A DNA stretch of 14,597 bases from Thermoplasmata archaeon (GTDB lineage: Archaea > Thermoplasmatota > Thermoplasmata > UBA10834): contig JALOTO010000019.1 in the NCBI GenBank assembly GCA_025457845.1, positions 1 to 14,597 of the forward strand. Reading direction: 5' to 3'. The notes beneath the pieces are model-generated. The model was not told the origin of the DNA. It saw nothing but the letters and a program-made list of their open reading frames with translations, and ran no database searches. Each line of letters opens with the position of its first letter. The stretch's first letter is position 1. Positions 1,755 to 13,896 of this stretch are shown in pieces. The position numbers and the translations under genes are program-made.

Positions 1755-3473
1755 TTGCCAGATTCTAGCGGAGAGAAGCTCTGTCCGATTTGCGATTCTC
1801 CGCTTCAGCCCGGTTCGAAGAAGTGCGGGTTCTGCGGTACTGACCTGACCATCTTCGACATCGAGGTAGAGCCCGTCAAGAAGGCCGCGACCCCGCCCTC
1901 CGCGCCGAGCAGGGAGAGGATCGAGTCGCGTGTCGACGAGATAATGTCACGTCCGTCCCGCCCGTCGGGGATAAGGGACGTCTCCAAAGCACCGGCCCCG
2001 GCCCCGAAGCCGGCTCCCGAGCCCGTCCCCGAGGTCAAGCCGGAACCGGTCAAGGAGCCGGAACCCGCCCCCGTGGTGAAGGAACCGACGGCCGAGACGC
2101 CATCAGTGGAGATGTTCGAATGCCCGGAGTGCGGCGGCAAGGTCGAGGTCACCGCGAGCTCGTGCCCCAAGTGCGGCGTCCTGTTCGCCGAGGAGGGCGC
2201 GGACATGTTCCAGTGCCCAGCGTGCAACACGCTGGTCAATGTCGATGCGAAGGCGTGCCCCGGCTGCGGTGCTGTCTTCGTGGAATCAGAGGAGGCGGCC
2301 CAGGCGGAGTCAGCCTCGGCCGTCGCCGAGGCCGAACCGAAGCAGGTCGAGGCGCCTCAGCCCGTCCAGGCCCAGATCGAGGCCCCAGTCGCCGAGGTCG
2401 AGGAGGAGCCCGTCGAGGCGCGCGCCCCCAAGGCCGCGAAGGCGGACGAGGCCGCCGAGAAGAAGGGGCTGCTCGGGGGTTTCTTCAAGCGCAAGAAGAA
2501 GGAGGAGCCCGAGAAGATCCCGGAACCGGAGCCGAAGAAGGCCGTCGAGGAGGAGCCGGAAGAGGAATCATCGATACCAGGGATCCACGCTCCTGATGTC
2601 ATACCCCCGGTGAGGAAGCTCGCCCCCAAGGTCGAGCCCAAGCCTGAGCCGCGCCCCGTCCCGACGATGGAAGTGCGCGCGCCCGCGCAGCCCGCGCCCG
2701 CGATAGACGCGAAGGACAAGGGCAAGGAGCTGGCGCGGATGGTCGCGGAGATGAAGCCTCTTCTCGCGCTCGCAATGGAGAAGGAGGTCGACATCTCCGA
2801 GCCGAAGCACCTGATCGACGACGCGGCGGTGGCCGGCAGGGAAAGGCACCTGGACACCGCGATAGACCTGGTGCGGCAATCGAAGGTCATGCTCATGAAC
2901 AAGCTCGAGGTGCAGCTCACGGCGATGCTCGGCGTGCTGCGCGAGGAGCTCAAGGTCGCTTCGTCCCTCGGAGGGGACGTCTCGCGGCCAACCACGTATC
3001 TGCAGGAGACGGAGAAGGCGAAGGCCGCGGGTGACGTCGAGGCGGCGTTCGTCTACGCGGAGAAGGTCCAGAAGGACCTCCAGCCCATCACGGGCCGCTA
3101 CAACGAGTCCAAGAAGAAGATCGCCGCCCTGAAGGGGCTCATCGCGGACTGCGAGGTCTTCATCGTGGACACCAGGGAGGCACGCGGGCTCCTGGTCGAG
3201 GCCGGCAACGCGTTCGAGTCCAACGACTACGGCGAGGTCGAGACCCTGGTCCGCACCGCCGAGGAGAAGCTCTACAAGTCCATCCCGAACAGGATGGCCG
3301 ACGAGATCAACAAGGCCAAGGAGCTCCTCCGCGAGGCCAAGATGAGGAACGTCAACATCACGCCCATGATCACGACCCTGAAGTCGGTCATCAACCTCAT
3401 GAAGGCCGGGGACTACAGGCAGGCGATGAAGGAGATGCGGGACTTCAAGGAAGCCGTCCGCAGGTCGGCATAG
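1755..3473 (+). CDS. Three-zinc-ribbon protein with Pro/Glu-rich linker and C-terminal helical repeats
   Basis: The start is TTG at 1755, supported by GGAGG at 1741-1745 with a 9-nt spacer. The 572-residue protein has no signal peptide or membrane helix. It carries three CxxC...CxxC zinc ribbons: C10/C13/C24/C27, C123/C126/C137/C140 and C154/C157/C168/C171. Between and after them are low-complexity Pro/Glu/Lys/Ala linkers (about 75-115 and 178-315) with a very basic patch FFKRKKK near 243-249. The C-terminal part (about 320-572) is all-helical and looks like about four degenerate repeats of 45-55 residues, each ending in a pattern like LxxAxxxxxxGDYxxAxxxVRxAEE. I cannot name a function; the layout suggests a cytosolic scaffold or partner-binding protein. 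It converges with the DnaA-like gene, 6 bp away, and shares a stop-codon hairpin with it. Confidence 0.85.
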   Translation: MPDSSGEKLCPICDSPLQPGSKKCGFCGTDLTIFDIEVEPVKKAATPPSAPSRERIESRVDEIMSRPSRPSGIRDVSKAPAPAPKPAPEPVPEVKPEPVKEPEPAPVVKEPTAETPSVEMFECPECGGKVEVTASSCPKCGVLFAEEGADMFQCPACNTLVNVDAKACPGCGAVFVESEEAAQAESASAVAEAEPKQVEAPQPVQAQIEAPVAEVEEEPVEARAPKAAKADEAAEKKGLLGGFFKRKKKEEPEKIPEPEPKKAVEEEPEEESSIPGIHAPDVIPPVRKLAPKVEPKPEPRPVPTMEVRAPAQPAPAIDAKDKGKELARMVAEMKPLLALAMEKEVDISEPKHLIDDAAVAGRERHLDTAIDLVRQSKVMLMNKLEVQLTAMLGVLREELKVASSLGGDVSRPTTYLQETEKAKAAGDVEAAFVYAEKVQKDLQPITGRYNESKKKIAALKGLIADCEVFIVDTREARGLLVEAGNAFESNDYGEVETLVRTAEEKLYKSIPNRMADEINKAKELLREAKMRNVNITPMITTLKSVINLMKAGDYRQAMKEMRDFKEAVRRSA

Positions 3474-3480
3474 CCGACCT
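3462..3480. terminator. Stop-codon hairpin between convergent genes
   Basis: This is a perfect 8-bp inverted repeat, AGGTCGGC / GCCGACCT, with a 3-nt loop. The TAG stop of the zinc-ribbon gene (3471-3473) runs across the loop and right arm, and the right arm ends on the first base of the reverse-complement stop of the DnaA-like gene (3480-3482). A second overlapping inverted repeat (ACCTCA/TGAGGT, 3477-3490) is mutually exclusive with it. There is no T-tract, so a role as bidirectional terminator or 3'-end block is inferred. Confidence 0.4.
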
Positions 3481-5693
3481 CATGTGAGGTTCAGTACCTC
3501 CATCTCCCTCTCCAGGATCGATATCTCCTGCTGCTTCAGCGTCTCGGGGCTCACCGAGATCGCGAGGATGCACTTCGATTCCGAGACCTCGTCTATGAGG
3601 CTCCTGATGAACCTCAGGACCGCCTCGAAGTTGGTGCTGCTTATCAGGTACTGGATGCCGTCCAGGACCACCATCCCCTGCTTGGGGTCGGCGATGAACT
3701 CCTGGATCTTGTGGACCATCATCTCCAGGGACGGCGGGACCGTGGTCTCCTGGGAGCTGTCCCTGTCCGTCAGCCAGAGTATCTCCGGCTGCTCCTGGAA
3801 CTCCTCCCTGACCCGCTTCGGGTTCATCCTGGTGATGACCAGCCCCCTGAACTCCTCCTTCATCTTCCTCGACAGGAGGACGTTGCTGTAGGTGGGCTTC
3901 TCCTCCTCGATCAGGTAGCAGTGCCCAGGCTGGACCTTGACCTCCTTCATGATCTCCTTGCGGGTCTCCTGGACCGGGGCCAGCGGCTTCAGTATGTCCG
4001 AGACCAGGGCGAGGTCGACCTCCAGCTTCATTATGGTCGCGAACGCGGAGATCTTGTTCAGGGTGCTCTCGAGCTCGCGGACGCTGTTGGTGACCCTCTC
4101 CGCGATGTAGGCGACGATCTCGTCCGACATCCTCAGCTTCTTCTCCGCCGCCTTCGCCTTGAGTATCCTCACCCGCGTGTCGAGGTCCGGCGGCTGGATG
4201 TCGGCGGTTAGCCCCTTCTGTATCCTCGAGCTCAGCCTCTCGCTGAAGGCGGGGATCTGCGCGGGGACCCTGTCGCTTGCGAATGCCACCTGCTTGCCCG
4301 AATCGATCAGGCTGTCGATGACGTTGACCATCTCGTTCTGCGCGGCCTCGCTGGCCGCCAGGAACTGCAGGTCGTCGACGAGCAGGACGTCGGCCTTCTT
4401 CAGGTCCTCCCTTATCCTCCTCGTCAGGTCGCTGCCCTTCGCCTGGTCGAAGGCCTCGACAAGCCGGTCCGAGGGGACGTAGAGTATCTTGAGCGACGGG
4501 CTCGTCTGCCTGAGCTTGTTCCCGATGCTGACCAACAGGTGGGTCTTGCCCAGGCCGGACCCGCCGAATATGAGGAGCGGGTTGTACGTCTTGCCCGGTC
4601 CCTCGGAGACCGCGACCGCGGCGGCCACTGGGAACTTCGAGTTCGGCCCGACCACGAAGCTCTGGAAGGTCATGTCTGGCTGGAGCGGCTTCGTGAAGGT
4701 CATGGCGGGGATCTCCTCGGCGGAACACTTCGGGCAGCTCCCCTTCGGGTCTAGCTTCCCCCCGCACCTCGGGCAGCCAGCCTGGGCCGGCGCTCCCTCG
4801 GCCTCCGCCGCGGTCCCGGTCTGGTACTTGAGTATGAGGTCGTAGACGTCGGCCGCCTTCTCCTCGCGCTTCTTCTTCTCCATCTCGGCCTTGATCGACT
4901 CCTCCTCGGCCTTCCGCTTCTGGACCTTGCGGCGGATCTTCTCCTGCAGGAACTCGATGTCCGATTCTATCTCCGCGATCCTGGAGCGGTCGTCGAGCTT
5001 GGCCCGGATCTCGTTTATCTCGGGCTCATGCCCGAGTATCGGGAAGTTGTTGAGTATGGCCTCGAACTGCTTCAGCCGGTCGACGTCCTTGTCGAATATG
5101 GCCAGCTCCTTGGTGAGGGCCGGGGCCCCCTTCTTCTGGGCCTCAAGGAGCGTGTCGACCTTGAACCCCTTCCTGCGCCACTGCTCGATCCTCTCGGAGC
5201 CAGGGTCGGTCGGCCTCTCCTCGTCCTCAGCCTCCGGCGGCGGTGGCGGCTCGGGGGCCTGCGTCGCTGGCGCAGCGGCGGGCGCCGGCACCCTGGCAAC
5301 GGGCCCCTTCGCGGCGACAGTCCGCGGGCCTGCGATCCAGGAGTCGGGGAACCGCCTCTCGAACTCCTCGCTCGAGACGCGGCTGTGGAGTTCGATGCTC
5401 GAGCCCTTGTCCTGGGAGTCCTCGAGTATGAACCTGAGGGACTTCTCCCCGGTGTAGATCCTCCTGAGCTCCCTCGGCTTGGACTTCTCGAACTCGTAGA
5501 TCGCCATCACGGGGGTGCCCTGCTCGACCACTATGTAGCCCATCGAGCTCATGATGTCCTTCTCTAGAGTGACGCGGACGTAGCCCGAGAAACTGTATTG
5601 CTTGAGGTCCGCGAGGATCGCCTTGAGAGAATCAGGTCCGCCCTTCGCGGTCCTGACTACGATGCCCTCCGGGATGCGCAGGTCCGTGACCAT
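3480..5693 (-). CDS. DnaA-type AAA+ ATPase fused to DUF835, with zinc ribbon and coiled coil
   Basis: The 737-residue protein has several parts. (1) Residues 1-105 form a small alpha/beta domain I cannot name with confidence. (2) A Pro/Ala linker follows (about 125-160). (3) A charged helical/coiled-coil region spans about 200-285. (4) A zinc ribbon has C307/C310/C320/C323. (5) A bacterial DnaA domain III-like AAA+ module spans about 341-560: TFQSFVVGPNSKF (342-354), NPLLIFGGSGLGKTHLL with Walker A GGSGLGKT (377-384), Walker B VLLVDDLQFL (436-445), sensor 1 ASDR (472-475), ERLSSRIQKGLTADIQPPDL with the arginine finger at R490, and sensor 2 NSVRELESTLNKI (R539). (6) DUF835 spans about 585-735. 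DnaA domain IV, the DnaA-box-binding helix-turn-helix, is absent and DUF835 occupies its place. All ATPase residues look intact, so ATP-dependent assembly is likely; the role is unknown. The ATG start has GGGAGA 6 nt upstream. Confidence 0.87.
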   Translation of the reverse strand: MVTDLRIPEGIVVRTAKGGPDSLKAILADLKQYSFSGYVRVTLEKDIMSSMGYIVVEQGTPVMAIYEFEKSKPRELRRIYTGEKSLRFILEDSQDKGSSIELHSRVSSEEFERRFPDSWIAGPRTVAAKGPVARVPAPAAAPATQAPEPPPPPEAEDEERPTDPGSERIEQWRRKGFKVDTLLEAQKKGAPALTKELAIFDKDVDRLKQFEAILNNFPILGHEPEINEIRAKLDDRSRIAEIESDIEFLQEKIRRKVQKRKAEEESIKAEMEKKKREEKAADVYDLILKYQTGTAAEAEGAPAQAGCPRCGGKLDPKGSCPKCSAEEIPAMTFTKPLQPDMTFQSFVVGPNSKFPVAAAVAVSEGPGKTYNPLLIFGGSGLGKTHLLVSIGNKLRQTSPSLKILYVPSDRLVEAFDQAKGSDLTRRIREDLKKADVLLVDDLQFLAASEAAQNEMVNVIDSLIDSGKQVAFASDRVPAQIPAFSERLSSRIQKGLTADIQPPDLDTRVRILKAKAAEKKLRMSDEIVAYIAERVTNSVRELESTLNKISAFATIMKLEVDLALVSDILKPLAPVQETRKEIMKEVKVQPGHCYLIEEEKPTYSNVLLSRKMKEEFRGLVITRMNPKRVREEFQEQPEILWLTDRDSSQETTVPPSLEMMVHKIQEFIADPKQGMVVLDGIQYLISSTNFEAVLRFIRSLIDEVSESKCILAISVSPETLKQQEISILEREMEVLNLT

Positions 5694-5832: not shown

Positions 5833-5926
5833 GCCACTGTAGCTCAGCGGCAGCGCCTACACGGCGCCGCGAAAGAGCGGCGGTTTCGTAAACCGCAGGT
5901 CGGGGGTTCAAAACCCTCCAGTGGCT
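5833..5926 (+). tRNA. tRNA-Thr (anticodon CGT) interrupted by a 22-nt insert in the D arm
   Basis: The acceptor stem GCCACTG (5833-5839) pairs perfectly with CAGTGGC (5919-5925). The discriminator is T5926 and no CCA is encoded. The anticodon arm is GCGGT TTCGTAA ACCGC (5880-5896) with anticodon CGT at 5887-5889, reading the Thr codon ACG. The variable loop is AGGTC and the T arm is GGGGG TTCAAAA CCCTC (one G-U pair). The D arm starts normally as GCTC AGCGGCA (5842-5852), but its partner strand GAGC appears only at 5875-5878, after 22 extra bases. With 5853-5874 removed the result is a standard 72-nt tRNA with a perfect D stem, so the insert is most simply a non-canonical intron between positions 21 and 22 (the join can slide by one base either way). 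U73 and the GCC/GGC stem fit archaeal tRNA-Thr. Confidence 0.88.
5853..5874 (+). other. 22-nt insert (putative non-canonical tRNA intron) in tRNA-Thr
   Basis: The 22 bases split the D stem of tRNA-Thr. They can fold as a 5-bp hairpin, GCGCC-TACAC-GGCGC (5853-5867). The 3' end of the insert can alternatively pair with the following exon as CGCCGC-GAAAGA-GCGGCG (5865-5882), which places the predicted 3' junction in the loop. I could not build a clean bulge-helix-bulge motif at either of the three equivalent junctions (best case 3 of 4 central pairs), so removal by the archaeal splicing endonuclease is inferred rather than shown. Confidence 0.65.
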
Positions 5927-6883: not shown

Positions 6884-6896
6884 GCCGACGGCTCAC
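6880..6896. terminator. Stop-codon hairpin shared by the Yip1-like gene and thiC
   Basis: The perfect 7-bp inverted repeat GTGAGCC-GAC-GGCTCAC has a 3-nt loop. The left arm contains the TGA stop of the Yip1-like gene (6881-6883) and the right arm contains the TGA stop of thiC on the minus strand (6893-6895). It is symmetrical for both transcripts and has no T-tract. A terminator or 3'-end stabiliser role is inferred. Confidence 0.45.
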
Positions 6897-8158
6897 TCGT
6901 CGATGATCCGGTCGACCATCTTCATGGCGCAGAGGTCCCCGCACATGGAGCAGACCTCGGGGCTCCTGGGCTTCCTCTTCTTCCTGTACGCCCTCGCCCT
7001 GTCCGGGTCCATGCTCAGGTCGAACATCGTCTCCCAGTCGAACGCCTTCCTGGCGGAGGACATCCTCAGGTCCCAGTCCCTGTCCCTGCCACGCGCGAGG
7101 TCCGCGGCGTGGGCGGCGATCCTCGAGGCGATGACGCCCTCGCGGACGTCGTCGACGGTCGGCAGCGAGAGATGCTCCGAAGGGGTGACGTAGCAGAGGA
7201 AGTCCGCGCCGTGATAGGCCGCGATGGCCCCTCCGATGGCCCCGACGATGTGATCGTATCCGGCCCCTACATCGCACACCAGCGGCCCGAGGACGTAGAA
7301 CGGGGCGCCCCTGCATACGGCCTTCTCGATGCGCACGTTCGCCTCGATCTGGTTCATCGGGACATGCCCCGGCCCCTCGACCATGGCCTGCACTCCGGCG
7401 GCCCTGGCCCTCTCGACGAGCTTCCCGAGCACCATCAGCTCGTGCATCTGGGGTATGTCGGACGCGTCGGCCGTGCTCCCGGGCCGCAGCCCGTCTCCGA
7501 GGCTGAGCGCGAATCCGTGCTCCTTGGCGAGCTCGAGCAGGTAGTCGTACTCCGAGAAGAGCGGGTTCTCAGCGCCGTTGTGGTGCATCCACGCGACGAG
7601 GATCGCCCCGCCCCTGGAGACTACGCCGGTGACCCTCTTGTGCTTCTTGAGGGACTCCGCGGTCTCGACGGTGACGCCGCAATGGACGGTCATGAAATCT
7701 ATCCCGTCCTTGGCGTGCTCCTCGATCGACCTGAAGAGGTCATCGGAGGACATGCTCAGGACTCCTCCGGAGCCGGCCTTCCTGCACGCCGCCTCGTAGA
7801 TAGGGACGGTCCCGACCGGCACGGTCGATGCCTTCACGACCTTCCGGCGGACCGCCTTGGTGTCGCCCCCAGTGCTGAGGTCCATCACGGCGTCCGCCCC
7901 GTACCTGATGGCCACGCGCAGCTTCTCGAGCTCCTCGTCGACATCGGCATGGTCCTTGGAGGTCCCGATGTTGGCGTTGATCTTCACCCTCAGCCCTTCG
8001 CCTATTCCGCACGGGGCGAGCCTGGTGTGTCTCGGGTTCCGGGGGATAACGACCCTTCCTGAGGCGACGAGTCTGGCCAAGCGCTCGAGTTCGAGTCCTT
8101 CGGCCTTCGCAACCCCCTTCATTTCCTGTGGAAGTGCCCTGTTCCGTCTGCCAGCCAT
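6893..8158 (-). CDS. thiC: Phosphomethylpyrimidine synthase (ThiC)
   Basis: ThiC is a radical SAM enzyme that converts aminoimidazole ribotide to hydroxymethylpyrimidine phosphate in thiamine synthesis (family knowledge). Signatures in order are EMKGVAKAEG near the N-terminus, GRVVIPRNPRH, KINANIGTS, YGADAVMDLSTGGD, VGTVPIYEA, DFMTVHCGVT, SRGGAILVAWMHHNGAENP, SLGDGLRPGSTADASD, VEGPGHVPMNQI, VLGPLVCDVGAGYDHI, GADFLCYVTPSEHLSLP, and the C-terminal cluster motif CSMCGDLC (C403/C406/C410). The start is set at ATG 8158, giving 421 residues. The upstream GTG (8185) lies only a few bases past the TATA box at 8190-8197, before any possible transcription start. The leader is only about 10 nt, so it has no room for a TPP riboswitch, and none was seen further upstream. 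Confidence 0.95.
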   Translation of the reverse strand: MAGRRNRALPQEMKGVAKAEGLELERLARLVASGRVVIPRNPRHTRLAPCGIGEGLRVKINANIGTSKDHADVDEELEKLRVAIRYGADAVMDLSTGGDTKAVRRKVVKASTVPVGTVPIYEAACRKAGSGGVLSMSSDDLFRSIEEHAKDGIDFMTVHCGVTVETAESLKKHKRVTGVVSRGGAILVAWMHHNGAENPLFSEYDYLLELAKEHGFALSLGDGLRPGSTADASDIPQMHELMVLGKLVERARAAGVQAMVEGPGHVPMNQIEANVRIEKAVCRGAPFYVLGPLVCDVGAGYDHIVGAIGGAIAAYHGADFLCYVTPSEHLSLPTVDDVREGVIASRIAAHAADLARGRDRDWDLRMSSARKAFDWETMFDLSMDPDRARAYRKKRKPRSPEVCSMCGDLCAMKMVDRIIDE

Positions 8159-8189
8159 CGGATACCGTTTCCAATGAACGGTCACGCGG

Positions 8190-8363: not shown

Positions 8364-8386
8364 CCTGCAGTGGAAACGAAGGGGGG
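8364..8386 (+). other. ORB element with G-string
   Basis: The segment GTGGAAACGAAGGGGGG (8370-8386) matches the 3' half of the ORB consensus including the G-string. The 5' half (CCTGCA) has two mismatches to the fixed bases. In total 15 of 17 fixed positions of the full ORB fit. It is inverted relative to the site at 8326-8339. Confidence 0.6.
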
Positions 8387-8419
8387 TTTTTGGGACGGCC
8401 AGATAGTACTCGCAAAGCC

Positions 8420-8530: not shown

Positions 8531-10432
<1,902 letters not shown>

Positions 10433-10443
10433 GGTGGACGGGC

Positions 10444-13074
10444 ATGGCTGACGACAAGAACCCTGAGCAACACCCGCAGTCCCCGATCGCCGCGAGGCTC
10501 GTGCCGCGCCCCATCGAGACGGAGATGAAGAAGTCGTACATCGACTACGCCATGAGCGTCATCGTCGGGCGCGCGCTCCCCGACGTCAGCGACGGCCTCA
10601 AGCCGGTCCACAGGCGCATCCTGTTCGCCATGAACGAGATGGGCCTGCTCCACAACCGCCCTCAGAAGAAGTCGGCGAGGGTGGTCGGCGAGGTCCTGGG
10701 CAAGTATCACCCGCACGGCGACGTCGCCATCTACGACACGCTCGTCCGAATGGCCCAGGACTTCTCGATGCGCTACCCGCTGGTCGAGGGCCAGGGCAAC
10801 TTCGGCAGCATAGACGGGGACTCCGCAGCCGCCATGAGATACACCGAGTGCAGGCTCTCCTCGATATCCACTGAGATGCTCGACGACGTCGACGAGGAGA
10901 CGGTCGACTTCACGGACAACTTCGACGGGACCATGAAGGAGCCGCTCGTGCTCCCAGCCCGCCTCCCCAACCTGCTCGTCAACGGCTCGTCCGGCATCGC
11001 CGTCGGCATGGCCACGAACATACCGCCCCACAACCTGACCGAGGTCGTGGACGCGATCAGCCTCATGATCGACAGGCAGATCGCGGGCAAGGACGTCGAG
11101 CTCAGGGACCTCATGGAGGTCATCAAGGGGCCGGACTTCCCGACCGGAGGCATCATCTACGGGGCTCAGGGCATCGCGGAGGCGTACGCGTCCGGGAAGG
11201 GCCGCATCCGCATCCGCGCGCGCTACACGGTGGAGCATGACGAGGACACCGGGCGGGCGCAGGTCATCGTCACCGAGATCCCCTACATGGTCAACAAGAG
11301 CACCCTGGTCGAGGAGATCGCCCAGCTGGTCAAGGACAAGCGCATCGAGGGCATCTCGGACCTGAGGGACGAGAGCGACAAGGACGGCACCAGGATCCTG
11401 ATAGAACTCAAGCGCGACGCGATCGAGGACATAGTCCTCAACCAGCTCTTCGCCCACTCCCAGCTCCAGACGACCTTCGGCATCATCAACCTCGCGCTGG
11501 TCAACAACCAGCCCCGCGTGCTCAGCCTGAAGGAGATGCTGGAGTACCACATCGAGCACAGGTTCGATGTCGTTAAGAGGCGCACGCAGTACCGGCTGAG
11601 GGAGGCGGAGAAGCGCGCTCACATACTCGCGGGGCTCATGATCGCCCTGGACCACCTGGACGATGTCATCAAGATCATCAGGAAGGCCAAGACGAGGGAC
11701 GAGGCCCGGACAGGCCTGATGTCCAAGTACCTGCTCTCGGAGGAGCAGACGAAGGCCATCCTGGAGATGCAGCTCCAGAGGCTCACGGGCATGGAGATGC
11801 AGGCCGTCAGGGACGAGTTCGCCGCGACCCAGAAGCTCATCGAGGAGCTGCGCTCCATCCTGAAGGACGAGAAGAAGATCCTCGGGATCATCAAGGCCGA
11901 GGCCATCACGATACGGGACAAGTACGGGGATGAGAGGCGGACCCACATCGAGGCCCAGGGGGCCGACATGGACATCGAGGACCTCATCCCGGTCGAGGAC
12001 GTCGTGGTGATGATCAGCAACACCGGCTACATCAAGCGCCTCTCGCTCGACACCTACCAGTCGCAGAAGAGGGGCGGCGTCGGGCTCATGGGCATGGAGA
12101 CGAAGGAGGAGGACTACGTCGTCGACCTCTTCGTCACCTGCTCCCACGACTACATCATGTTCTTCACGAACAAGGGCAGGGTGTACTGGCTGAAGGCGTA
12201 CAGGATACCCGTCGGCGGGCGGCACGCGAAGGGCAAGCCCATCATCAACCTGCTCGAGGCCCTCGAGGAGGGCGAGCACGTCATGAGCACCAAGCCCGTC
12301 AAGCACTTCGAGGACGACCGGTACCTCGTCTTCTCCACCAGGCGCGGCCTGATCAAGAAGACCCGCCTGTCCGCGTACCAGCATGTCCGCCAGAGCGGCA
12401 TCATCGCCATCAAGCTCGAGGAGGGCGACGAGGTCATGGAGACGGCCATCACCGACGGCAGCAAGGAGGTCCTGCTGGCCACCAGGAAGGGCCTGGCGGC
12501 CAGGTTCCTGGAGACCGACGTCCGGCCAACGGGCAGGGCGACCTTCGGCGTCAGGGGCATAAGGCTGCAGAAGGGCGACGAGGTCGTCAGCATGGCCGTC
12601 GTGAACGAGCACGACCAGCTCCTGACCGTGACCGAGAACGGGTACGGCAAGCGCTCCCTAGTGAGCGACTACAGGAAGATACGCAGGGGCGGGAAGGGAG
12701 TCATCACGATCAAGACGGTCGAGAGGAACGGTAAGGTCGTCAGCGTGAAGGCCGCCACGGACGAGGACGAGCTCATAGTCACGAGCGTGCGCGGGATGGT
12801 CATACGCATGCCCGTGAGCGGCATAAGCGTGCTCGGGCGCGCGACGATGGGCGTGCGCATGATGCGCCTCAGGGAGAACGACAGGGTCACGGCTGTCGCG
12901 CGGCTGATCGGGCTGAGCGAGGAGGAGCGCGTCGTCGAGAGCGGCAGGACACTGACCACCTGCCCCCCTGAGAACGGGGACGCCGCCGAGAACGGCGACG
13001 GAGAGGGCGACGAAGAGGACGGCAAGGAGGAGACTGGCGGAGGGGAAGGGGACGACGAGGGCGACGAGACCTAG
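10444..13074 (+). CDS. gyrA: DNA gyrase subunit A
   Basis: This is the DNA-cleaving and wrapping subunit of gyrase. I start it at ATG 10444, with GAGGTGGA (10431-10438) overlapping the gyrB stop as ribosome site; an in-frame GTG at 10429 lies inside gyrB and is not needed. The 876 residues show [19 protein letters not shown] (30-48), [11 protein letters not shown] (50-60), [14 protein letters not shown] (87-100), and the catalytic tyrosine Y133 in [11 protein letters not shown]. The C-terminal beta-pinwheel contains the GyrA box QKRGGVG (541-547), which marks it as gyrase rather than topoisomerase IV. V94 occupies the E. coli Ser83 position, while D98 matches Asp87. The last ~37 residues are a Gly/Asp/Glu-rich acidic tail. 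The gene is separated from gyrB by only 11 bp, so the two form an operon. Confidence 0.97.
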
Positions 13075-13182: not shown

Positions 13183-13896
13183 TTGTTCAGAGATTCCATC
13201 CCAGGCCTGGAGAAGGTCTTCAAGAACGACGTCGCACGCCCCAAGGTAATCCTCGTGACCGGCCCGCCGGGCTCGATGAAGACGAGCTTCTGCTACTCGC
13301 TGATGTCCCACTACCTGAAGGACAAGAACGAGATAGGCCTGTACGCCACCCTCGAGGAGACGGTGGACAGCCACATCAAGAACATGGAGAGCATGGGCGT
13401 GAAGCTCTCCGCCAAGATGCAGATCTCCGACATGACCGACCTCAGGGACATGGACCAGATAGACGAGGTCGTCGGGGAGGACGTCTCGACGGACTACGTG
13501 CTGTTCATAGAGAAGATGATCCAGAGGTTCAGGCGCTCCCACGGGGACAAGTTCTCGATATTCGTCCTCGACTCGCTCGGCGCGCTCTACTCCCTGATGG
13601 AGAACCAGAAGGACATGCGCAAGAAGATGTTCTACTTCTTCAAGATGCTCAGGGACAACAACCTCACCACGTTCATTATCATGGAACGCTCTCTCAGCGG
13701 GGAGTCGCAGCTCCTCGGGAACGAGGGCTTCCTCGCGGACGGCATCATGATGCTCGGCCTCGACCGCCAGAGGGGGAAGCTGATGAGGTTCCTCCAGGTC
13801 GAGAAGATGAGGGCCTCCGAGCACAGCATGGAGCGCCATGCGATCGAGGTCGGCAAGAACGGCATCCAGGTCCTGGGTCCGCTCCTGAGCACCTGA
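13183..13896 (+). CDS. Single-domain KaiC-like RecA-family ATPase
   Basis: The start is TTG 13183, with a strong AAGGAGGA site (13168-13175) 7-8 nt upstream; the next in-frame ATG would remove the Walker A motif. The 237 residues form one RecA/KaiC fold: IPGLEKVF near the N-terminus, Walker A GPPGSMKT (27-34), paired acidic residues in ATLEET (E58/E59) at the KaiC catalytic position, Walker B FSIFVLDS (D130), and the C-terminal KMRASEHSMERHAIEV (208-223), which corresponds to the KMRG..HS....EI motif of KaiC. Only one domain is present, unlike the double-domain cyanobacterial KaiC, and no kaiA or kaiB is in view. Archaeal proteins of this type are implicated in signalling or complex assembly, but the role here is unknown. 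The coiled-coil gene 58 bp downstream may be co-transcribed. Confidence 0.87.
   Translation: MFRDSIPGLEKVFKNDVARPKVILVTGPPGSMKTSFCYSLMSHYLKDKNEIGLYATLEETVDSHIKNMESMGVKLSAKMQISDMTDLRDMDQIDEVVGEDVSTDYVLFIEKMIQRFRRSHGDKFSIFVLDSLGALYSLMENQKDMRKKMFYFFKMLRDNNLTTFIIMERSLSGESQLLGNEGFLADGIMMLGLDRQRGKLMRFLQVEKMRASEHSMERHAIEVGKNGIQVLGPLLST

Follow-up and report, generated by a model that had tools for sequence, protein, structure and literature searches.

DnaA and Orc1/Cdc6 are usually presented as the bacterial and the archaeal alternative to one another. Hda acts on DnaA and stimulates ATP hydrolysis by this initiator via the sliding clamp. In archaea, a domain known as DUF835 is labelled 'iKaiC' (inactive KaiC) in PMC5847659. 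Here we describe a protein that joins a DnaA-type AAA+ core to a C-terminal DUF835. It is encoded within a stretch of 14,597 nucleotides from a Thermoplasmata archaeon (contig JALOTO010000019.1 of assembly GCA_025457845.1; hereafter the window). A sequence-only reading of this DNA had proposed that an initiator ATPase was re-used for another task, and re-use for something other than initiation appears from sequence and predicted structure to be the likeliest reading.

The gene and the domains of its product are as follows.

3480..5693, minus strand: DnaA-type AAA+ / DUF835 protein, 737 amino acids, ATG start
5334..5693, minus strand: N-terminal alpha/beta domain, residues 1-120, from the predicted local confidence (pLDDT) of an AlphaFold2 (AF2) model and from the alignment
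4818..5204, minus strand: helical / coiled-coil segment, residues 164-292, from AF2 helices
4707..4787, minus strand: zinc ribbon, residues 303-329, with near-invariant Cys 307/310/320/323
3978..4691, minus strand: DnaA domain III-type AAA+ core, residues 335-572, from profiles, structure match and residues
3492..3926, minus strand: DUF835, residues 590-734, a KaiC/FlaH-fold domain without P-loop

Since at least 119 homologues besides the query match it at 66-96% identity over 99-100% of its length, the protein is no chance reading frame. The main alignment (A1) had 68 rows, made up of 60 of 120 listed proteins (P0001 included) and eight locus proteins, and a second one (A2) used 34 of 44 proteins; L, G and P with a number denote loci, genomes and proteins.

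By sequence and by predicted fold, the core scores as DnaA-type rather than as Hda, DnaC or IstB. Bac_DnaA (PF00308) matched residues 337-497 with E 9.2e-49 and 166.2 bits, against a Pfam cut-off of 23 that is permissive enough for three archaeal controls with other AAA+ proteins to pass. The rival Pfam families were far weaker (IstB_IS21, 41.7 bits; AAA, 24.4 bits). Over residues 250-580, the NCBIfam model for DnaA (TIGR00362) gave 277.7 bits, short of the 343.9 that its equivalog cut-off demands, and that for Hda (TIGR03420) gave 102.4 bits, below its cut-off of 194.8. Among chains in the PDB, DnaA of B. subtilis, T. maritima and A. aeolicus matched by sequence at 197.7, 177.6 and 111.8 bits, and Hda and helicase-loader chains at no more than 40.2. 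Similarly, the AF2 core superposed on domain III of B. subtilis DnaA with a TM-score of 0.93 (target length), an rmsd of 1.8 and 39% identity, and on T. maritima DnaA with 0.91 and 39% identity to domain III, as against 0.67-0.74 for Hda chains. Finally, a seed profile built from seven DnaA and archaeal sequences, the window protein among them, scored the window protein at 347 bits, bacterial DnaAs at 206-391, E. coli Hda at 73 and DnaC at 30; a 281-amino-acid Butyrivibrio fragment (152 bits) was set apart. The 41.7 bits for IstB_IS21 are what might suggest a DnaC/IstB-type helicase loader, or a generic AAA+ protein merely resembling DnaA, but the Bac_DnaA score, the seed profile and the structural match make this very unlikely, and a loader of that kind was rejected on the Pfam and seed-profile scores.

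All the domain III motifs quoted in the sequence-only reading are indeed present. Walker A (377-385, with K383) and Walker B (436-441, with D440/D441) keep the DnaA residues, box VII (483-491, with R486/R490) keeps the arginine finger R490, and the sensor 2 residue R539 is kept; these arginines correspond to R285 and R334 of E. coli DnaA, which we take to be its arginine finger and sensor 2. Judged by its residues, the ATPase and oligomerisation site is intact. The positions of E. coli V211, K243 and R245, presumably those that contact single-stranded DNA, read D416, S448 and A450 and are thus changed in the window's clade. The R245 position is also variable among the bacterial DnaAs aligned (Q, G). 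In L020-L022, which are deeper relatives, the residues at the three positions are still hydrophobic and basic.

Neither DnaA_N (domain I, PF11638) nor Bac_DnaA_C (domain IV, PF08299) gave a Pfam match at E <= 1, and residues 573-737 comprise a linker and DUF835. The latter matched PF05763 over residues 600-731 (E 1.5e-28; 99.7 bits, above the cut-off of 33.1) and is predicted to have a KaiC/FlaH fold, although by eye no GxxxxGKT follows the strand at 592-596, where CYLIEEEKPT stands instead. The proposal that DUF835 replaces the DNA-binding domain holds for its position only: the domain is of KaiC/FlaH fold and occurs in relatives without a DnaA core, as well as adjoining orc1/cdc6 and on a tRNA synthetase. 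The synthetase (L056 1082-5197, G001) has 1371 amino acids and combines a class I enzyme, inferred from a DUF5915 match to be Ile-type, with a helix-hairpin-helix and a C-terminal DUF835; similar long reading frames of ~1350-1470 amino acids with a DUF835 match are found in other Thermoplasmatota genomes. A small DUF835 gene lies directly 3' of the second orc1/cdc6 in L048, L049 and L050 (G001, G257 and G002), that is, in 3/8 loci, and not in the five other genomes read (L051-L055). At L055 3146-4965 (G262), a KaiC-family gene (227 amino acids) lies directly upstream of the second orc1/cdc6.

The other attached parts named in the sequence-only reading, an N-terminal domain, a coiled coil and a zinc ribbon, are all seen in the alignment and the AF2 model (68-row alignment; mean pLDDT 85, pTM 0.45). 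The N-terminal domain is conserved, with pLDDT 88-96 in 10/12 ten-residue blocks, and is also found in orthologues without the DnaA core (L043-L047). Its best Pfam match, to DUF2226, is weak (E 0.011), and it drew no assignment in a fold search with the AF2 model, whose match list was taken up by DUF835. Helices are predicted at 164-174, 180-188, 190-215, 223-231 and 236-292. The four cysteines of the zinc ribbon are nearly invariant over the 68 rows, and the ribbon matches Pfam DZR weakly (E 0.068).

The host is a Thermoplasmatota archaeon, as had been supposed. All 17 related loci, found with back-translated patterns in 15 genomes, are from Thermoplasmatota, Thermoplasmata or Euryarchaeota/euryarchaeote metagenome-assembled genomes (MAGs). 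The usual archaeal initiator is present too, since Orc1/Cdc6 (TIGR02928) passes the cut-off in 9/9 related genomes, eight of which have two such copies. A single contig carries both the gene and two copies of orc1/cdc6 in G001 (1.7 Mb; the genome of L013) and in G002 (2.0 Mb; that of L002). A core of bacterial type, with titled matches that are MAGs, might be thought to come from bacterial contamination or misbinning, but it is fused in frame with DUF835, its gene order is kept over the 17 loci within contig reach (bar a Yip1 match in L009 and L015), and it shares those two large contigs with Orc1/Cdc6. An artefact of this sort is scarcely credible.

A survey across Thermoplasmata had been suggested, and ours covered one phylum and four archaeal controls. 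Bac_DnaA matched 49/292 Thermoplasmatota genomes at E <= 1e-10; at this threshold the matching controls were 10 named genomes, all bacterial, and 0/4 of the archaeal ones. Weaker matches carry no meaning, because 3/4 archaeal controls also match at E <= 0.001. With the full protein as query, 146/292 genomes matched at E <= 0.001, many of them by DUF835 only. The DnaA-type cores occur in several architectures, which were read from translations, BLAST and Pfam, with coiled coils, signal peptide and membrane helix judged by eye; some reading frames used for trees and neighbourhoods came from a simple gene caller and have uncertain start codons.

(a) window type
(b) L020-L023: gene order as in the window type, deeper, 35-41% identity
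(c) L024/L025: degenerate core
(d) L026/L027/L042: N-terminal domain, helical repeats, core, DUF835
(e) L028/L031/L032: core between a long coiled coil and C-terminal zinc ribbons, DUF835 not matched
(f) L033-L036/L039: ~420 amino acids, coiled coil and core
(g) L037/L041: signal peptide, sub-cut-off FnIII-like matches (L037), membrane helix, core
(h) L038/L040
(i) L029/L030: coiled coil and core, then DUF835
(j) split: core gene adjoining an N-terminal domain/DUF835 gene (L057-L061) or a DUF835 gene (L062)

For (e), a match to the N-terminal domain appears in the longer stretches L130 and L131. The split loci L057-L061 show adjacent genes in 5/5 loci fetched, with the N-terminal match wanting in L061. 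Their N-terminal domain/DUF835 genes have a long C-terminal extension, shorter in L061, for which the one case scanned (L058) gave no Pfam match.

The lack of DnaA's flanking domains extends to these relatives. Nine core proteins, scanned on Pfam together with one DUF835 partner, had no DnaA_N or Bac_DnaA_C match at E <= 0.01, and the 25 families met most often in the 68 members of A1 do not include PF08299. In precomputed annotation of the best 120 of 7990 matches, the ten archaeal-named proteins all belong to Thermoplasmatota and show neither PF11638 nor PF08299, whereas those with bacterial names carry PF08299 and nearly always PF11638; fifteen of these 120 (P0212-P0226, 599-685 amino acids) have neither and bear at most a DnaA label.

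The core had also been taken for a transferred initiator. Its transfer from bacteria, once or more often, is the simple reading of the sequences, but our trees bear out neither direction nor donor. Both drew on a selection of 35 archaeal rows, the window included, and on bacterial DnaA rows found by tblastn (13/54 plasmid matches used, no phage matches). A first tree of 53 rows, from which the Butyrivibrio plasmid fragment was left out, brought long branches together, and the lone Hda row, on a branch of 4.98, fell among the DnaAs. For a second tree of 42 rows, 12/54 cores were dropped: the Butyrivibrio fragment, DnaC, Hda, five split-type rows, L024, L025, L029 and L030. Here the window type, whose stem is long (1.03), formed one group with L020-L022 (95/87), and the backbone came out unresolved; a single archaeal clade of 26 rows was not rejected (approximately unbiased test, p 0.436).

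The gene lies in a conserved block, in which the following neighbours stand out.

1755..3473, plus strand: zinc-ribbon and coiled-coil protein, convergent neighbour, position kept in deep relatives too
6893..8185, minus strand: thiC, conserved neighbour; the 5' end of its reading frame holds one site like an origin recognition box (ORB)
8537..10432, plus strand: gyrB, by Pfam, conserved block
10429..13074, plus strand: gyrA, by Pfam, conserved block
13183..13896, plus strand: KaiC-family ATPase gene (PF06745, E 1.3e-34), downstream of gyrA and conserved with the block

The order KaiC, gyrA, gyrB, thiC, Yip1-like, DnaA-like, zinc-ribbon/coiled-coil, adenosine-specific kinase, OGG is found in all eight loci that span the whole block (L001, L002, L005, L006, L007, L008, L010 and L013), and loci cut by contig ends agree with it, apart from the two in which the Yip1 match was not seen. 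The DnaA-like gene stays beside gyrase down to 35-41% identity, and gyrase, thiC, the DnaA-like gene and the zinc-ribbon gene retain their order in L064, L065 and L067. L063 keeps this order as well, but its gene consists of the N-terminal domain and DUF835 only. Likewise, in L043-L047 the core is absent and these two domains remain between thiC and the zinc-ribbon gene (in L045 the thiC side falls outside the matched stretch); the relatives with names are Methanomassiliicoccales archaeon or Euryarchaeota archaeon. The alignment suggests that a short 'YHREKS' in the core-less orthologues is a remnant of the linker. Plausibly, this type arose by loss of the zinc ribbon and core, with gain as the possible alternative.

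Several further features of this region were noted. Long in-frame inserts in GyrA of L063 (1367 amino acids) and L065 (1246) and in GyrB of L064 (1093) and L067 (1072) are probably inteins. In the window, a tRNA gene at 5833-5926 on the plus strand (Rfam, 56.9 bits), which carries some two dozen inserted bases and was missed by ARAGORN, is probably Thr-CGU, with the anticodon loop UUUCGUAA. It overlaps the GTG start (5921) of the Yip1-like reading frame, whose true start is probably an ATG further in. A GCCAGATRGTA-like element at ~8398-8408, between an ORB-like site and the TATA-like box of gyrB, recurs in the loci aligned with the window and can still be recognised in the deep relatives L063, L064, L065 (in part) and L067. 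Elsewhere, the core-DUF835 gene of L136 adjoins a PheRS-type synthetase gene, and a 77% homologue is placed likewise in L137.

Genes for KaiC- or RecA-family ATPases recur near these cores. A Rad51-family gene follows the core-DUF835 gene of L127, with a 51% homologue at the equal place in L129, and in L132 a core gene with a membrane anchor stands ahead of a KaiC gene and, after it, a gene for a DUF835 protein with seven transmembrane helices (7TM). This three-gene row (L132 8451-11953, G027), in which the outer part of the core protein is weakly FnIII-like, looks like a receptor system. DnaA-type cores in Thermoplasmatota might act as receptor ATPases of a STAND-like kind, with ATPases of the KaiC family receiving their signal, which would make the window protein a signalling scaffold with no DNA link whose place beside gyrase is no more than inherited synteny. 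The version with signal peptide and transmembrane helix (by eye) before the core, with its weak, sub-cut-off FnIII-like matches, would fit, as would the KaiC and 7TM-DUF835 genes after that core in L132, the cores that sit amid apparently unrelated genes and the presence in the block of thiC, for which we know of no tie to topology. Retention beside gyrase through divergence to 35-41% identity argues the other way, as do the DUF835 genes that follow the second orc1/cdc6 in 3/8 loci read; on balance we regard a pure signalling role as somewhat unlikely, if credible.

In its thiC-gyrB region the window has two ORB-like sites.

8114..8133, minus strand: ORB-like site inside the 5' end of the thiC reading frame, G-run pointing left, 2 mismatches
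8365..8384, plus strand: ORB-like site ahead of gyrB, with its G-run pointing right, 2 mismatches

We scanned 13 window-type loci (L016 and L017, which also reach thiC-gyrB, were left out) with a pattern from the archaeal consensus CTTCCAGTGGAAACGAAAGGGGT (PMC4153887, Table 2, quoting Pelve et al.). At <= 5 mismatches there were 34 matches, 31 of them at thiC-gyrB, compared with five for the reversed pattern. Both sites are present in 12/13 loci, and L012 has the thiC-side site only. Mismatches number 1-3 on the thiC side and 1-5 on the gyrB side (5 in L010 and L013; the L012 site fails), and the gyrB-side site is aligned across the thiC-gyrB regions of window-type loci. The G-runs point outward, and the space that the sites enclose measures 246-261 bp (11 loci) or, in the window, 231 bp; it is not AT-rich (GC 0.50-0.60 in the 11 loci and 0.60 in the window).

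The thiC-side site was considered as a by-product of a ThiC protein motif. This was rejected: residues vary, and the CCA, GAA and GGG codons are identical in 13/13 loci, against a background in thiC bodies of 35/217, 70/320 and 138/493. The loci are related, so that the 13/13 count yields no probability; its letters come from the ORB scan and its frame from translations, and an automated motif search returned codons for 6 of the 13 loci.

Genome-wide, 14 genomes were searched at <= 3 mismatches. Each of seven window-type genomes (G001-G006 and G257, the last by position beside L019) has a match at thiC-gyrB, and ORB sites flank the region upstream of the best orc1 in G001, G257, G248, G219 and G271. 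The reversed control gave 0-7 matches per genome against 2-9 real ones and equalled or exceeded the real count in G006, G248, G219 and G259; a single three-mismatch match carries no weight, because the control reaches real counts. Titration of haloarchaeal Cdc6 by ORB clusters, likened to datA, is described in a review (PMC4010727). By inference from sequence, Orc1/Cdc6 may act on gyrB through the thiC-gyrB sites or be titrated there, or the sites may mark a second origin.

Alternatively, the protein might assist Orc1/Cdc6 at these sites, 2.4 kb away, in the role of an auxiliary initiator or of a factor that loads the helicase. The paired sites with outward G-runs in 12/13 window-type loci would suit such a role, as would the hydrophobic and basic residues that L020-L022 retain at the single-strand positions and the distance of 44-47 kb between the DnaA-like gene and the best orc1 in G001, G002, G248 and G271 (a single contig each). 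It is nevertheless doubtful, given that the protein has no duplex-DNA-binding domain, that the contact positions are altered in the window's clade, that the space between the sites is not AT-rich and that ORB pairs also occur at the best orc1. GC skew, taken over part of G001, placed no origin here (minimum at ~750 kb, with orc1-1 at 793-794 kb and the DnaA-like gene at 838-840 kb), and a repeat search at orc1 returned nothing informative.

We favour, tentatively and at somewhat less than an even chance, a model whereby the DnaA-type ATPase has been re-used as an ATP-dependent oligomerisation switch that reports to a partner, rather than as an initiator. The N-terminal domain and coiled coil would bring subunits or a partner together, ATP would drive DnaA-like stacking of the cores, and the KaiC-fold DUF835, lacking a P-loop, would relay their state to the partner. 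This partner would most likely be either an ATPase of the KaiC family or one of the proteins encoded in the gyrase/Orc1 neighbourhood. A KaiC/RecA-family partner is plausible because such a gene recurs nearby, beside gyrA and next to the core in two other architectures. The most likely output would be control of topology or initiation by protein contact, following an Hda-like logic, rather than origin melting, since in this lineage one fixed block unites the module with gyrase and a pair of ORB-like sites. That the core and the N-terminal/DUF835 part occur as adjacent genes, and that core-less orthologues exist, supports the logic of such a module.

Several observations weigh against this model. 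A KaiC partner is suggested by gene position only, and L133, close kin of L132, has the KaiC gene with no DUF835 gene called. The packing of the domains is not confidently predicted (pTM 0.45). The split-type cores L057-L061 score 60-76 bits on the seed profile, no better than the 73 of Hda, and the arginine finger is lost in these and in L024, L025, L029 and L030 (rows shown), so that part of the wider family cannot use DnaA-like stacking. The cores of L124-L126 sit among housekeeping-looking genes (TPR, methyltransferase, TtuA-type, RDD, FMN-dehydrogenase-family and amino-acid-kinase-family), and neighbourhood may for this reason mean little. Finally, no thiC-gyrB ORB match was found at <= 3 mismatches in the deeper genomes G271, G183, G248, G219 and G089, and deeper relatives that lack these sites still have the DnaA-like gene.

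A bolder reading would be a system with two types of initiator, in which Orc1/Cdc6 starts replication, while the DnaA-type/inactive-KaiC ATPase responds to the state of the cell and, at the ORB-like sites of the thiC-gyrB region, governs both Orc1/Cdc6 and gyrase. We consider this improbable; if true, it would be an archaeal counterpart of the bacterial Hda/datA brake, tying supercoiling to initiation.

The resemblance to DnaA is already visible in databases, where automatic labels on Thermoplasmatota MAG proteins read 'DnaA/Hda family protein' or 'chromosomal replication initiator protein DnaA' (NCBI/JGI), though the anatomy predicted from sequence does not support the label of replication initiator. 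Among the matches listed from the open-licence PMC literature, we found no description of a fusion between a DnaA core and DUF835. The passages available from PMC11880632, PMC3984812, PMC7776575, PMC4153887 and PMC4010727 describe no DnaA-type protein of archaea, and the main text of a paper on gyrase in archaea (PMC9348778) mentions neither DnaA nor KaiC. Members of an archaeal phylum keep Orc1/Cdc6 and, in addition, have DnaA-type cores that are well conserved and come in several architectures. None of the scanned cores has a domain IV match, and public annotation names some of them as replication initiators. The family shows possible uses of the DnaA engine once freed from DNA binding, its core-less and split-gene orthologues are natural test material, and it draws attention to the conserved surroundings of the gyrase genes, where candidate sites for Orc1/Cdc6 lie.

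Compared with bacterial DnaA (TIGR00362; PF00308), the window protein has in common the AAA+ fold and the catalytic and arginine-finger residues. It differs in having no domain I or IV match, in scoring below the TIGR00362 cut-off and in adding an N-terminal domain, a zinc ribbon and DUF835 to the core; moreover, the related archaeal genomes also have Orc1/Cdc6, whereas in bacteria DnaA is the initiator. With archaeal DUF835, or iKaiC, proteins it shares the C-terminal domain PF05763. Hda (TIGR03420) is likewise a DnaA-type AAA+ protein without domain IV and offers a model for regulatory re-use. However, it matches the window core far less well than DnaA does (102 versus 278 bits; TM-score 0.67-0.74 versus 0.93), and its partner is DnaA, whereas no full DnaA was seen here. 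The Hda-like mechanism that had been suggested is not borne out here, any target being putative.

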